Shown one piece after another: positions 1 through 10,974 of a DNA stretch of 39,960 nt. The stretch comes from Candidatus Omnitrophota bacterium. Lineage in GTDB: Bacteria; Omnitrophota; Gorgyraeia; Duberdicusellales; 4484-171. The position numbers and the translations under genes are program-made. The notes beneath the pieces are model-generated. The model did not search any database. It was not told the DNA's origin and saw nothing but the letters and a program-made list of their open reading frames with translations. The stretch spans positions 1 through 39,960 of the forward strand of contig JAMXCX010000012.1 in NCBI GenBank assembly GCA_024542985.1. Reading direction: 5' to 3'. Numbering within the stretch: the first letter of the stretch is position 1; each line of letters opens with the position of its first letter.

Positions 1-662
1 CTTCTCATCTTAAACCCTACGGGACAAATTATTTCTCTTATGTCCTTATTGGAATTGCCTTTTTTAGTTACGTAAGTATAGGTGTGAGTAATTTTGCTAA
101 CATTATCCGAAAAGAACAGCTAATGGGCACATTAGAAAATTTGTTCGCAACCCCTACAAAACTATCAACCCTAATTGCAGCAATGGGAATATGGAATTTT
201 ATTTGGGCCTCAATAGAAGTTATTATTTATTTAATACTGGGAGTATTTTTATTTGGTATTGATTTAGGCCAAATTAATCTTTTATCAGCTTTTGTCATTA
301 TGATTTTAACCATTATATCGTTTAGCGGCTTAGGACTGGTAGCCGCCGGCTTTATCATTATATTAAAACGAGGCCAACCCATAACCTGGGCTGTGAATAC
401 TTTATTTGAAGTTTTAGGCGGGGTATATTTTCCGATTACTGTTTTTCCCGGCTGGCTCAAAATAATTTCCCAAATTCTTCCGGTCACTTATTCGGTAAGG
501 GCAATGCAATGGGCTGTTTACCGCGGTTATAACTTGGCAGCCTTAAAGCTAGAGATAAGCATTTTGAGTATATTTTCTCTTATTTTGCTTCCTCTAGGTT
601 TTGAGCTTTTGAAATATGCCCTTAGACGAGCAAAAAAAGACGCAAGCCTAAGCCATTACTAA
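1..662 (+). CDS. ABC-2 type transporter permease, 5' truncated by window
   Basis: Integral-membrane subunit of an ABC exporter of the ABC-2 family. The reading frame is open from the first bases of the window (frame starting at base 3), so the GTG at 84 is not the real start and the N-terminus lies outside. Visible: an ABC-2-like segment (IRKEQLMGTLENLFATP) that typically lies between membrane helices 2 and 3, then about four hydrophobic helices, a conserved GGVYFP stretch, and a basic C-terminus. The ATP-binding subunit must lie upstream. It converges on the RiPP operon, so a role in exporting that product is possible but unproven. The substrate cannot be told from the sequence. Confidence 0.85.
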   Translation, partial: SHLKPYGTNYFSYVLIGIAFFSYVSIGVSNFANIIRKEQLMGTLENLFATPTKLSTLIAAMGIWNFIWASIEVIIYLILGVFLFGIDLGQINLLSAFVIMILTIISFSGLGLVAAGFIIILKRGQPITWAVNTLFEVLGGVYFPITVFPGWLKIISQILPVTYSVRAMQWAVYRGYNLAALKLEISILSIFSLILLPLGFELLKYALRRAKKDASLSHY

Positions 663-1882: not shown

Positions 1883-1996
1883 TTAGCAATTATGTCTTAT
1901 TGGACTACAAGGTGAGCTCATCTGACAGGCAGCAAAAAATACTTTTAACTTTTTAACACTCATCTTTGGCTTCTCATATTTTTTTTTCTTCTTCAT
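1883..1996 (-). CDS. Putative RiPP precursor peptide, 37 residues
   Basis: Short ORF between the SPASM enzyme and the nucleotidyltransferase. Its ATG (1996-1994) overlaps the TGA of the enzyme gene (1995-1993), and a perfect AAGGAGG lies at 2010-2004, seven bases upstream, the best ribosome binding site in the operon. The peptide opens with MKKKKKYEKPKM: a basic head and Tyr7-x-x-Pro10-x-Met12, resembling the YxxP(xL) motif that leader-binding RRE/B1 proteins recognise in lasso-type precursors. It continues SVKKLKVFFAA and ends CQMSSPCSPIRHNC, with Cys at 24, 30 and 37 and Ser at 27, 28 and 31. Inference: residues around 24-37 are the core, with the Cys as radical SAM targets and the Ser as possible kinase targets. 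No Gly-Gly cleavage site. Not verified by homology search. Confidence 0.8.
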   Translation of the reverse strand: MKKKKKYEKPKMSVKKLKVFFAACQMSSPCSPIRHNC

Positions 1997-2997
1997 CCTA
2001 AGACCTCCTTTTTTATTTTTGCCAAGCGGCAAGCCTCTTTGTATGAGGCTTTAATATCTCCTTCTTCTAAAAAGGCAGCTCCGGGGCAGCGAAAACAATA
2101 ACTAGAGACTCGGCAGCTGGAACATTTTTCTAAATCAGAACGTTTGAGCAAGCGTATATCCTGTAAAAAGTGTGATTTTTGCCAAACATCCTTAAACGGC
2201 TGTTCTCTTAGGTTTCCGGCTGAGATTGGCGCTCCCACGCAAGGATAAACTTCTCCCAAGGGATTTATAGTGCAGGCGGTTCTGCCGAACTGACATATCA
2301 AGCCCGGTTTTTGGGGTTCTTTAAAAAACGCGAGTTCTTTTTCTTTATCTCTTAGGTAAAGACTCTTTAAATCGCTATCAGATAATCTAAACTCTAAAGG
2401 CTGCTTTCCTTTGTCATGCTTGGCGTATACTTGCGGAGAATAGAAAAAATTAACTCCTAACTCATCAGCTAAAAGCTGAACCCGGCCTAATTCCTCTATA
2501 TTTTGCTTCATTAAAGTAAGCATTAACCAAACTTGTAAGCCTTGAGCTTTTAAGTATTTTACTGCGGATATAACTTTAGTAAAAGAACCTTGGCTTTGAG
2601 TGATGGAATCATGTGTTTTAGTAGAAGCACCATAGATACTGATATCTACTTCCAGAAAGTTTAATTTATTAATCTGTTTGGCCATATAGGAATCAATTAA
2701 GGTACCGTTAGTTTTAAGCTCAAGAGCAAATTTTTTTTCATAGGCATATCTAGCAATATCTAAAAAATCTTCCCGCATCAGGGGTTCTCCTCCGGTAAAA
2801 GTAAGAAAAAGACAGCCGGCCTTGGCTAACTGGTCCAAAATATCTTTTATCTCCTCAAGCTTAAGCTCATTACCCTGATAAGGATTCTGATAGCAGTGAA
2901 GGCAATTAGTATTGCACTTCCAGGTCAGTTCAAAAGAAGCATGAACAGGTATGTTATTTTTTTCTAACTTTACAGAAAAACTATCCGGAAATATCAT
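1993..2997 (-). CDS. Radical SAM/SPASM peptide maturase
   Basis: 334 residues. The radical SAM cluster motif CNTNCLHC is at Cys28, Cys32 and Cys35, and the SAM-binding GGEP is at 69-72. The C-terminal SPASM domain has Cys235, Cys253 (G-x4-C), Cys292, Cys295, Cys301, Cys304 and Cys323, a spacing expected for two auxiliary [4Fe-4S] clusters; Cys242 is extra. SPASM enzymes install thioether or C-C crosslinks in ribosomal peptides or mature enzymes. GGGGG and an 8-base spacer precede the ATG at 2997, right after the truncated paralogue. The gene overlaps the precursor ORF by ATGA, so the two are translationally coupled. Most likely this is the main modifying enzyme for that peptide; the bond formed is unknown. 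Confidence 0.88.
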   Translation of the reverse strand: MIFPDSFSVKLEKNNIPVHASFELTWKCNTNCLHCYQNPYQGNELKLEEIKDILDQLAKAGCLFLTFTGGEPLMREDFLDIARYAYEKKFALELKTNGTLIDSYMAKQINKLNFLEVDISIYGASTKTHDSITQSQGSFTKVISAVKYLKAQGLQVWLMLTLMKQNIEELGRVQLLADELGVNFFYSPQVYAKHDKGKQPLEFRLSDSDLKSLYLRDKEKELAFFKEPQKPGLICQFGRTACTINPLGEVYPCVGAPISAGNLREQPFKDVWQKSHFLQDIRLLKRSDLEKCSSCRVSSYCFRCPGAAFLEEGDIKASYKEACRLAKIKKEVLG

Positions 2998-5163: not shown

Positions 5164-6297
5164 TTAATCTTTTAAATAGCCTTGAATATGAAGGTTTGGA
5201 TACTCTTCTAAGTTAATTATCCGTGCATCCTGGGGTCTATCACTATCAATATCACAAACTTCAACTACCGGGTTCAGAGGATACCCAAGATTTCTGCCGA
5301 TAACTTTGGCATTCTCACCCGAACTCAATCTAACATAAGCGCCAATAGGAAAAGGACAGGAAATTCTCTCAATAAATGACTTAATTACTTTTTCTCCGAA
5401 AGAATTTTTGATGCGAATAATCAAATTTAAAACTTCATAGGGTTGTATTCGGCCGCGCTTAAAGCCCGGATAAACCAATACTTCATACAAGTCAGCTAAG
5501 CCTATTATTTTAGAATATTCAAACATTATATCGTCATCTAAACCTTTGGGGTAACCGATTTGCGTCATGTGCTCAAGGTCTTGATAGGCAGCAGAAATAA
5601 ATTTGCTAGCTATATTTTCAAATTTATCTATAGTTTGCGAATTCAATTCCCTAGGTCCTTCTATCTCGCTAAACTTACCTTTTGTTTCCGGATGAGACCT
5701 AGAGTCTAATTGGTAAATTCTAAGCATTCCAATTTTATGTAGAAAAGCTGCAACGCCTAAATCAACCAATTTATCTTTGCTATACTCAAGACCAAGACCT
5801 ATCTCAACAGACACAATACAGACATTGATAACATGGTCATAAGGATAATTTTCTTCGGATGAGTGCAACAAAGCTAATACCTTATTGTCACCCCGGCTTT
5901 GCTTGCTGACAAAGCGTTCTATATGAATCGTAATAGCCTTGTCTGATGAGGCTGTATTATCTTCGTTTTTTAGCCGCTTATAAATATCCTTTATTAAAGT
6001 GATAGCCTCCTCATACGACTCTCCAATATCTTCACGGCCTAAGTTGTTAGATTTTTTCTTTACAAATTGAGAGATATTACTCTGCTTTTTTAGTTTTTTC
6101 TCCGGCTCTTTCGCAGGCTCAGATTTTCTTTGAATCTCGGTAGAAACTTTTTGGGGTTTTGAATACTTTCTTTGTCGCAAAGAGACTTCAGGCCCCAGTT
6201 CTTTTTTCTTAGGAGGAGATTCCTTCTTAGTCTCTTCCTGAACAGTATATTCTTGCTTTTTTAAGGCTTTCTTAAAAATATCGGCCATTCTTACCAT
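5164..6297 (-). CDS. Degenerate HD-GYP family protein at head of RiPP operon
   Basis: 377 residues. The first 90 or so are Lys/Glu/Ser-rich and probably disordered. The rest follows the HD-GYP layout, but the metal ligands are lost: the HD pair reads HK (His187-Lys188 in FLHKIG), and the HHExxDGxGYP signature is reduced to a segment ending in GYP (248-250) where the two His and the Asp are replaced. The C-terminal beta domain typical of HD-GYP proteins (GAYVRLSSGENAKVIGRN...PVVEV) is intact. Probably an inactive sensor or scaffold rather than a phosphodiesterase. It ends 23 bases before the B2-type gene on the same strand, so co-transcription is likely. Why a signalling pseudo-enzyme would lead a peptide operon is unknown. 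Confidence 0.75.
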   Translation of the reverse strand: MVRMADIFKKALKKQEYTVQEETKKESPPKKKELGPEVSLRQRKYSKPQKVSTEIQRKSEPAKEPEKKLKKQSNISQFVKKKSNNLGREDIGESYEEAITLIKDIYKRLKNEDNTASSDKAITIHIERFVSKQSRGDNKVLALLHSSEENYPYDHVINVCIVSVEIGLGLEYSKDKLVDLGVAAFLHKIGMLRIYQLDSRSHPETKGKFSEIEGPRELNSQTIDKFENIASKFISAAYQDLEHMTQIGYPKGLDDDIMFEYSKIIGLADLYEVLVYPGFKRGRIQPYEVLNLIIRIKNSFGEKVIKSFIERISCPFPIGAYVRLSSGENAKVIGRNLGYPLNPVVEVCDIDSDRPQDARIINLEEYPNLHIQGYLKD

Positions 6298-9527: not shown

Positions 9528-10112
9528 TTATTTAAGATTTTCAGAAAGCATATTACAAAATAATAACCCTTGCTCAATAGCATCATCAAGGGCCACGTGG
9601 CTTTTTTTATTTTTGTCAAACCATCTCTTAGGCATATTTGACTTAGTGATGCTGTAAAAAGGTTTTTTCATCATTGCGCAGGCAAAGGTTTTAATATCAA
9701 AAGCAAGATAGGTAAAAGGGCTCTTTCCGGTAAATTTGATTAAATACCAGTAAATAAAAGTAAAATCAAAAGAAGCCGGATAAGCAACAAAAACCGGTTT
9801 TTGCCCTAATGACTTTAACCATTTAGAATAAGCCACCATGGCCTCTTTAGGTTTCTGCAAATCTTTTCGGCAGAGATTCCAAGCTCGATTATGCCTGCGC
9901 CACCACTGCATCGTAGGCGGATCCTGTTTTGCATCGGGTAATGTTTCTAAATTAACCGAAAAAGTAGAAATAATTTTTTTATCAAGGCTAAAAGCTGCCG
10001 AGCCGAAACTAAGCATAGAATATTCACCGGGTATAGGCCCGTCGGCTTCAATATCTGTACTTACGTAAATTTCCCGCATAGGATTATAAATAGGGCCTCG
10101 CTGCTGAAACAT
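9528..10112 (-). CDS. DEDDh-type 3'-5' exonuclease
   Basis: 194 residues from 10112; a second ATG at 10079 (residue 12) gives a start right at the first strand and is equally plausible. The family is RNase T / Rv2179c-like. Seen: the first acidic motif STDIEADGP (Asp and Glu one residue apart), the middle [12 protein letters not shown] Asp, and the last motif HVALDDA with the catalytic His and Asp. It should trim RNA or DNA 3' ends in the cytosol. No partner genes nearby define its substrate. Confidence 0.8.
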
Positions 10113-10289
10113 AGCCCTAAAATCTGATTATAGCAGAAATATCTTAAAAAGGTGAGGTAATTTACTACTTTTAAGTTGGATAGAATTAAGGCGGGCTGTG
10201 GCAGTTAAAGATTATGCCTGTTGGCTATAAGTTTTTAGCTCATAAAAACATAATAGCCAAAAAAATACACCTATATGTGCGGAATCGGG

Positions 10290-10637
10290 CTAATTAACAA
10301 TATTTTTAAACATCTTTTTGACTTTTCCGTTTTGAATCTGGACCTGAAAAATCGAGTTTTTATCTTTTGTATTCCAAATATAAGTGCTTTTTTTAATGCC
10401 TCTGCTGCGGTCAAACTCCTTAGCAATCAGCATGGGTGTCCCCATGATCTTTGTTACTTCATCTGCACTCATTCCTTTTTTGATTCTCAAAAAATTATTA
10501 ACATTTACCTTTCCGTAATCAATATGCTTTGATGCTGAGCCTTTACGAATATTACCGGGTGCAGTCTTTTCATTAGGAGCCAATTTAGTGCAAGAAATCA
10601 AAAATAAACTCATCAAAAGTACTAAAAAAACTTTCAT
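10290..10637 (-). CDS. BamE/SmpA-like small lipoprotein
   Basis: 115 residues with a signal peptide and lipobox LFLISC (Cys16), so it should be lipid-anchored. The mature part holds FLRIKKGMSADEVTKIMGTPM, the signature of the SmpA/OmlA (BamE) fold, followed by YIWNTKDKNSIFQVQIQNGKVKKM, the expected strands. BamE itself is part of the outer-membrane beta-barrel assembly machine, but the domain is widespread in other lipoproteins. It is last in the small operon under the c-di-GMP riboswitch, 34 bases after the gene at 10672-10974, suggesting an envelope role regulated by c-di-GMP. Confidence 0.78.
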   Translation of the reverse strand: MKVFLVLLMSLFLISCTKLAPNEKTAPGNIRKGSASKHIDYGKVNVNNFLRIKKGMSADEVTKIMGTPMLIAKEFDRSRGIKKSTYIWNTKDKNSIFQVQIQNGKVKKMFKNIVN

Positions 10638-10671
10638 TGCTCTCCTCCTTTATTAAAGTTTATTTAGGGTT

Positions 10672-10974
10672 CTAGGAGAACCCTCTTCTCCGGCGCCTTC
10701 CAATACGCCTTTTTTTAGTCTTTTTTTCCTCAGCTACGGAATCAAAATAAGTCTTCTCCATAATATGTATATAAAAATCAATATCATGGAAATCGATATA
10801 ATTATCAAATTGCTTCTCGTAAATACCGGAAACTCTAAGCCTGCGATCGTTTATTGAATTTGCGCCGGCATTTAAAGCAAAACCGGCTTTGCCTGTAACG
10901 CTATTGTCAGCTAGCCCTAAAACTAAATTTGCGCTTGAAAACAACAAAGCAATAAAAAATACTTTCCCTGTCAT
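10672..10974 (-). CDS. Secreted protein of unknown function under c-di-GMP riboswitch
   Basis: 100 residues. It has a clear N-terminal signal peptide (MTGKVFFIALLFSSANLVLG), a middle region without a recognised domain, and a strongly basic C-terminus (KKTKKRRIGRRRRRGFS) that could bind nucleic acid, acidic polysaccharide or lipid. It begins nine bases after the stop of a 23-residue membrane peptide. Placement behind a c-di-GMP riboswitch suggests a surface or adhesion-related role; that is inference. Confidence 0.6.
   Translation of the reverse strand: MTGKVFFIALLFSSANLVLGLADNSVTGKAGFALNAGANSINDRRLRVSGIYEKQFDNYIDFHDIDFYIHIMEKTYFDSVAEEKKTKKRRIGRRRRRGFS

Follow-up and report, generated by a model that had tools for sequence, protein, structure and literature searches.

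A 37-codon gene as the probable precursor peptide of a radical SAM operon in Candidatus Omnitrophota

The window analysed here, a stretch of 39,960 nucleotides at the start of a Candidatus Omnitrophota contig, carries an operon of radical SAM enzymes and helper proteins (Table 1), and it raises the question of what these enzymes act on. An earlier note had pointed to a 37-codon open reading frame (ORF) directly after the radical SAM/SPASM gene and proposed it as the substrate. We found a genuine and conserved gene whose position ties it to the enzymes and whose wider family shows purifying selection. Judged from the sequences, it is very probably a RiPP precursor and the substrate of this operon.

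Table 1. Features of the window discussed in the text
Feature	Position	Strand	Evidence or remark
ABC transporter permease, possible exporter	3..662	plus	cut at contig start; convergent with the operon
Nucleotidyltransferase-like protein (NTP_transf_5), 368 aa	737..1843	minus	Pfam PF14907, 155 bits (cut-off 31.2)
Precursor peptide gene, 37 aa	1883..1996, stop included	minus	translation MKKKKKYEKPKMSVKKLKVFFAACQMSSPCSPIRHNC-stop
Predicted core, residues 24-37, CQMSSPCSPIRHNC	1886..1927	minus	Cys24, Cys30 and Cys37 invariant in six B2-type precursors
Leader, residues 1-23, with recognition motif YEKP (Tyr7, Pro10)	1928..1996	minus	boundary inferred
Radical SAM/SPASM maturase, 334 aa	1993..2997	minus	Pfam Radical_SAM 7e-23, SPASM 2e-12
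Ribosome binding site AAGGAGG	2004..2010	minus	read directly; within the SPASM coding sequence
Second radical SAM protein, SPASM-less, 204 aa	3001..3615	minus	CxxxCxxC intact; Pfam Radical_SAM 6e-26
HPr-kinase-like P-loop protein, 276 aa	3621..4451	minus	weak NCBIfam matches; AlphaFold2 model pLDDT 93.6
PqqD-type leader-binding protein (RRE), 91 aa	4441..4716	minus	Pfam PqqD 4e-18
B2-type transglutaminase-like leader protease, 135 aa	4733..5140	minus	NCBIfam lasso_biosyn_B2 45.9 bits (cut-off 33); Pfam PF13471 2e-12

The signals that had been described around the ORF were all borne out when read from the sequence. Seven bases (TCTTAGG) separate the AAGGAGG from the ATG, the start codon overlaps the stop of the SPASM gene in an ATGA (1993-1996), and Tyr7, Pro10 and the three Cys residues are in the places reported. 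The further statement that the gene falls below common gene-calling cutoffs was overstated: the minimum gene length of Prodigal is 90 nt, which 37 codons exceed, and ORFs of such size are nonetheless often missed. We scanned the whole window for reading frames 30-95 aa long that are preceded by a ribosome site, contain [Y/W]xxP early in the sequence and have two or more Cys further on. The sole ORF recovered was 1883-1996, against a chance mean of 0.05 in 40 dinucleotide shuffles, the scan settings having been chosen after the ORF had been seen.

The operon occupies 5140-737 of the minus strand, in the order B2 protease, PqqD-type protein, HPr-kinase-like protein, SPASM-less radical SAM protein, SPASM enzyme, peptide and NTP_transf_5. 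Cys81 and His115 of the B2-type protein were invariant in five sequences. For the PqqD-type protein, the best NCBIfam model was the lasso PqqD chaperone (3e-14, under the cut-off of the model) and the best PDB match was TbiB1 (4e-7), which places the lasso B1 proteins as its nearest relatives, in agreement with the earlier suggestion of a lasso-like, leader-binding RRE. Lasso RREs are known to recognise YxxP, and the broader W/Y/LxxP type is shared by the RREs of the lasso, PQQ and sactipeptide systems (PMC12710340). By sequence, the protein belongs to the PqqD type known to bind this leader motif.

When the profile of the SPASM branch was compared with the PDB, SkfB was ranked first (3e-29) and PqqE next, and SkfB is a sactipeptide synthase. 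The nearest PDB entries were thus peptide maturases, as expected if the SPASM enzyme acts on a peptide. The NCBIfam cut-offs for maturases were reached neither by the window enzyme nor by five relatives. The top sequence matches of the radical SAM core were haem-pathway enzymes, far under cut-off, which we counted against our preferred reading. The Pfam scan detected no SPASM domain in the second radical SAM protein. A shortened partner of this kind was also present in one relative (G045; L041 4184-4999), and the tree supports ranged from 0.06 to 0.92 when a single duplication was tested for the window and L041 enzymes.

Since the PDB sequence search with the HPr-kinase-like protein returned mainly P-loops, fold comparison was used instead. 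The AlphaFold2 model matched the fold of PEP carboxykinase at 7e-9 and that of HPr kinase at 2e-5; the TM-scores were modest. In the alignment, His137 and Lys158 were present in 65/65 sequences and Asp173 in 64/65; the fourth position (174) was Asp in 43 and Glu in 21, the window having Glu. This predicted residue set resembles the His-Lys-Asp-Asp of lasso kinases (PMC9266682). Across the fetched loci, 55 ORFs homologous to NTP_transf_5 and 32 homologous to the ABC permease were counted, the latter mostly adjoining the nucleotidyltransferase, and ABC ATPases of one homology cluster were neighbours in 49 loci. Upstream of the operon, the window encodes an HD-domain protein (5164-6297), which was a conserved neighbour in 18 loci. 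It is often accompanied by a putative ExeA-like ATPase and by a putative Wzz-like chain-length protein; such neighbours suggest that the operons tend toward an envelope-polysaccharide-like region.

A SPASM homologue below 1e-40 was carried by 72 of 384 genomes of the class, and 80 loci were fetched and annotated with profiles grown from the window proteins. In the tree, the SPASM enzyme of the window grouped with those of G171, G045, G145 and G184 (support 0.90), and these were the only five loci of the set with B2. A phylum search with the profile of these SPASM enzymes added G429 and G459, which were fetched only afterwards; both proved to carry B2 and, in the position expected for it, a matching precursor. 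The earlier note held that a true precursor should recur at this place in relatives with the same operon. Among the B2-PqqD-kinase-SPASM operons whose contig runs past the SPASM gene, 6/6, the window included, carried the short ORF there, G171 being left out of the count as its contig stops eight bases past that gene.

Tyr7, Pro10, Lys16, Phe21, Cys24, Cys30 and Cys37 were invariant in the six B2-type precursors, so that the YxxP motif and the three Cys singled out beforehand for a conservation check held throughout the window's branch. Profiles built from five of the precursors found the sixth at E-values of 2e-6 to 5e-16 (7.7e-12 when the window ORF was the one left out), with the next best match at about 0.4. 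Against the 384 genomes, the six-row profile recovered the loci of these six precursors at 2e-18 or below, followed by G401 at 4e-4, where the match also adjoins a SPASM gene. An alignment was needed for this purpose; the window precursor as a single query gave no other credible match in the family. The closest precursor was that of G459 (locus L147), which belongs to another family: 18/31 residues were equal in a gapless alignment from the Tyr to the end. Of the 19 codons with the same meaning, counting the stop, 8 differed in their DNA. In two B2-type relatives, CxxCxxCC-domain proteins (PF03692) lie between the precursor and the nucleotidyltransferase (L146:8164-9030, L147:5553-6197), and none was seen in the window operon. 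L146 also holds a second HPr-kinase-like gene (9973-10797).

In most of the 80 loci, a short ORF with [Y/W]xxP and Cys directly adjoined a SPASM, PqqD or kinase gene, and precursors of the [Y/W]xxP...Cys form were found beside maturases in about 50 operons of the phylum, the carriers belonging to many different families. The strict scan returned 44 sense ORFs near the enzyme genes (43/80 loci) and none in antisense. Elsewhere it gave three, two of which (L093, L096) overlap the end of a SPASM gene and are precursors too. No precursor was found in about 15 loci, some of them cut by contig ends. In the closer pairs of the wider family, pN/pS was 0.20-0.44; for the pairs that include the window ORF, the divergence was so large that the value is a rough one. 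The genus is represented by the window genome alone. The proposal that the ORF is the operon's substrate was strengthened by the 6/6 conservation, by purifying selection in the wider family, by the lasso-B1-like PqqD protein and by the peptide-maturase-like SPASM enzyme. The precursors tested had no match to any Pfam or NCBIfam model; a weak match to NF050043 (E 0.61) was rejected. A search for named relatives among genome contigs recovered only two Methanosarcina radical SAM loci, which had no bearing on the question.

The family also suggests where the core begins. The distance from the Tyr/Trp of the motif to the first Cys was 15-25 residues, mostly 17-22, and 38/51 precursors had three Cys after the motif. 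One locus (L113:5317-5846) carries three tandem precursor genes. Two of them share the same ribosome sites and identical leaders through ...GTIAHAA, after which the cores differ; the third has an altered N-terminus and a shorter core. These features place the predicted boundary just before the first Cys, and in the window it would lie directly before Cys24. The core of about residues 24-37 proposed earlier gained support both from L113 and from the closest precursor, whose core has the same 14 residues in length (CKNTAPCTPIRAQC in L147, CQMSSPCSPIRHNC in the window). The gene thus has the makings of a RiPP precursor, that is, a short peptide with a conserved leader and a more variable core, encoded beside maturases.

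The C-terminus of the core differed between the branches. Among the precursors from loci without B2, 35/47 ended in Ser and 40/47 in Ser or Thr, compared with 14% Ser at the other core positions, a contrast whose p-value overstates the case because the sequences are related. Of the four B2-type precursors in this count, none ended in Ser (Fisher p = 0.007), and the two obtained later ended in Thr and Cys; the window peptide ends in Cys. HPr-type kinases of lasso clusters phosphorylate a C-terminal Ser (PMC8498205, PMC9266682). Since most relatives have this residue and the window does not, a phosphate on the final Ser can well be predicted for the relatives without B2, and C-terminal phosphorylation is a poor prediction for the window peptide. 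An S24-type peptidase neighboured 32/80 loci without B2 and 0/7 with B2 by homology clustering (p = 0.04), and a cruder motif test gave the same direction (23/80 versus 0/7, p = 0.18). This weak association would fit a model in which B2 and S24 replace each other as leader proteases. For both the Ser and the S24 associations, the data that prompted the test also served for it; moreover, all B2 loci belong to a single clade and so amount to one or two independent events.

We infer every chemical step of the pathway as follows. The PqqD-type protein would bind the YEKP leader and present the peptide, and the radical SAM/SPASM enzyme together with the SPASM-less radical SAM protein would modify the three-Cys core. 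The modification would most likely consist of thioether crosslinks of the sacti- or ranthipeptide kind, and for thioethers in particular we see about an even chance. The B2-type protease would cut off the leader, which ends at about residue 23. Together, the HPr-kinase-like protein and the nucleotidyltransferase may decorate the peptide with a phosphate-based group, in the manner of kinase-bearing lasso clusters, or may do so only in relatives, and an ABC exporter would secrete the product.

The same precursor could instead receive a change other than a thioether, such as epimerisation or C-C links, with the Cys serving for disulfides or metal. SPASM-type enzymes are chemically diverse and can also epimerise or form C-C bonds, the SPASM-less partner is unusual, and the YydG epimerase ranks low among the PDB matches. 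However, the recurrence of three Cys after the motif in 38/51 precursors and the first rank of SkfB speak for thioethers, and we regard a different chemistry as rather unlikely. It is very unlikely that the peptide is the source of a small redox cofactor in the manner of PQQ or mycofactocin, in which one or two residues are rearranged and most of the peptide is waste. In favour of such a precursor, mycofactocin maturase is among the matches of the SPASM enzyme, PqqE is the second PDB match, and PQQ likewise uses a PqqD-type leader binder. Nevertheless, cofactor precursors keep their modified residues fixed, whereas in this family the positions between the Cys are variable, L113 holds precursors with different cores in one locus, and no PQQ or mycofactocin model was matched at its cut-off.

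B2, PqqD, the kinase, the nucleotidyltransferase and the YxxP leader are all parts of lasso clusters, which would suit a lasso precursor whose cyclase is located elsewhere. No Asn-synthetase-like cyclase was apparent among the window ORFs, and a genome-wide search with PF00733 gave one match, in a 633-aa frame on another contig. Moreover, the window core contains neither Asp nor Glu for macrolactam closure, and in relatives it is a radical SAM enzyme, not a cyclase, that adjoins the precursor; we thus consider a lasso product highly improbable. We judge it just as improbable that the ORF encodes a metal-binding or regulatory peptide that the enzymes do not modify. The three Cys and the basic head would fit such a role; but the leader motif fits the RRE type of the operon, every complete relative of the branch keeps the ORF together with the SPASM gene, and the absence from the window of any other candidate substrate of the [Y/W]xxP/Cys type argues against it.

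The preferred reading, a precursor with a radical-SAM-modified Cys core, was compared with known systems. The kinase-bearing lasso clusters of paeninodin and pseudomycoidin share with the operon a YxxP leader, a separate PqqD-type B1, B2, a nucleotidyltransferase and a transporter (PMC8498205, PMC9266682), and their C-terminal Ser is kept in most relatives though not in the window's branch. Their HPr kinase has His-Lys-Asp-Asp where the window has His-Lys-Asp-Glu. Unlike them, the window has radical SAM enzymes, a Cys-rich core and no lasso cyclase; of the lasso set, B2 was found over its cut-off, B1 (PqqD) came closest to lasso models though under their cut-offs, and no cyclase was found in the cluster. 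Sactipeptide systems with a discrete PqqD-type RRE (StsB/StsC) and SkfB resemble the operon in having a SPASM maturase beside a Cys-containing precursor, and StsC-type RREs also bind W/Y/LxxP leaders (PMC12710340). In contrast to those systems, the window adds a kinase, a nucleotidyltransferase and B2, and its thioether is predicted. The NCBIfam models of characterised sacti- or ranthipeptide maturases scored well below their cut-offs (bits/cut-off: StsB 115/625, PapB 70/340, AlbA 78/850).

Three further gene sets showed partial likeness. The SynChlorMet cassette combines a ScmC-like (kinase-like) protein, a PqqD-like protein and two radical SAM proteins; its models remained far under cut-off (ScmE 99/400, ScmC 23/125, ScmD 28/100 bits), and a ScmC-F set was not recognised. 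GeoRSP pairs a PqqD family protein with a SPASM enzyme (GeoRSP_rSAM 110/400), and HPr-rel-A pairs a PqqD family protein with an HPr-related kinase (HprK_rel_A 26/200), both models again under cut-off. In the literature search, which did not extend to subscription papers, no paper on SynChlorMet or on this gene set was found. Each of the parts has been seen before; an operon that joins radical SAM/SPASM maturation to the lasso helper proteins and lacks a cyclase appears undescribed.

We tentatively propose, at somewhat less than an even chance, an uncatalogued, phylum-wide RiPP class that couples radical SAM modification of a Cys core to the helper proteins of lasso clusters, namely leader binder, protease, kinase and nucleotidyltransferase. 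The class would have two alternative end treatments. One would combine an S24-type protease with a phosphorylated, decorated C-terminal Ser; the other, in the window's branch, would use B2 on peptides that lack a C-terminal Ser, some members having in addition a second radical SAM protein without SPASM. An overlooked 37-codon ORF would thus be the entry to dozens of precursors to which we found no matching Pfam or NCBIfam model, in a phylum met here mostly as fragmented genomes. The family predicts a leader-binding protein for each leader, the start of the core, and the relatives phosphorylated at the last residue. If the lasso type of C-terminal-Ser kinase does act on radical-SAM-modified peptides, the tailoring set would be a portable module across RiPP classes. 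The 14-residue core of the window peptide is conveniently short for co-expression tests.

Two further groups were observed in the looser listing and among the neighbours. A sister precursor type, KFxPxITRVKLNPEQAVLxCxC, stands beside arrays of several SPASM genes (L084, L094, L098, L101, L106, L107, L112, L114, L116, L117, L118). Its cores are long, variable and nearly always Ser-ended; two examples had no NCBIfam match, and one had no Pfam match. A UPF0489-like protein with a weak Pfam match (E 0.009) neighbours L147 (4684-5472) and 11 other loci (L077, L082, L093, L094, L096, L098, L102, L110, L111, L114, L115). Arg was present in the core of 8/8 precursors checked at such loci, with up to seven Arg in a core (p = 0.045). 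As UPF0489-like proteins belong to the peptide arginase family, this neighbour and the core Arg together suggest a conversion of Arg to ornithine.
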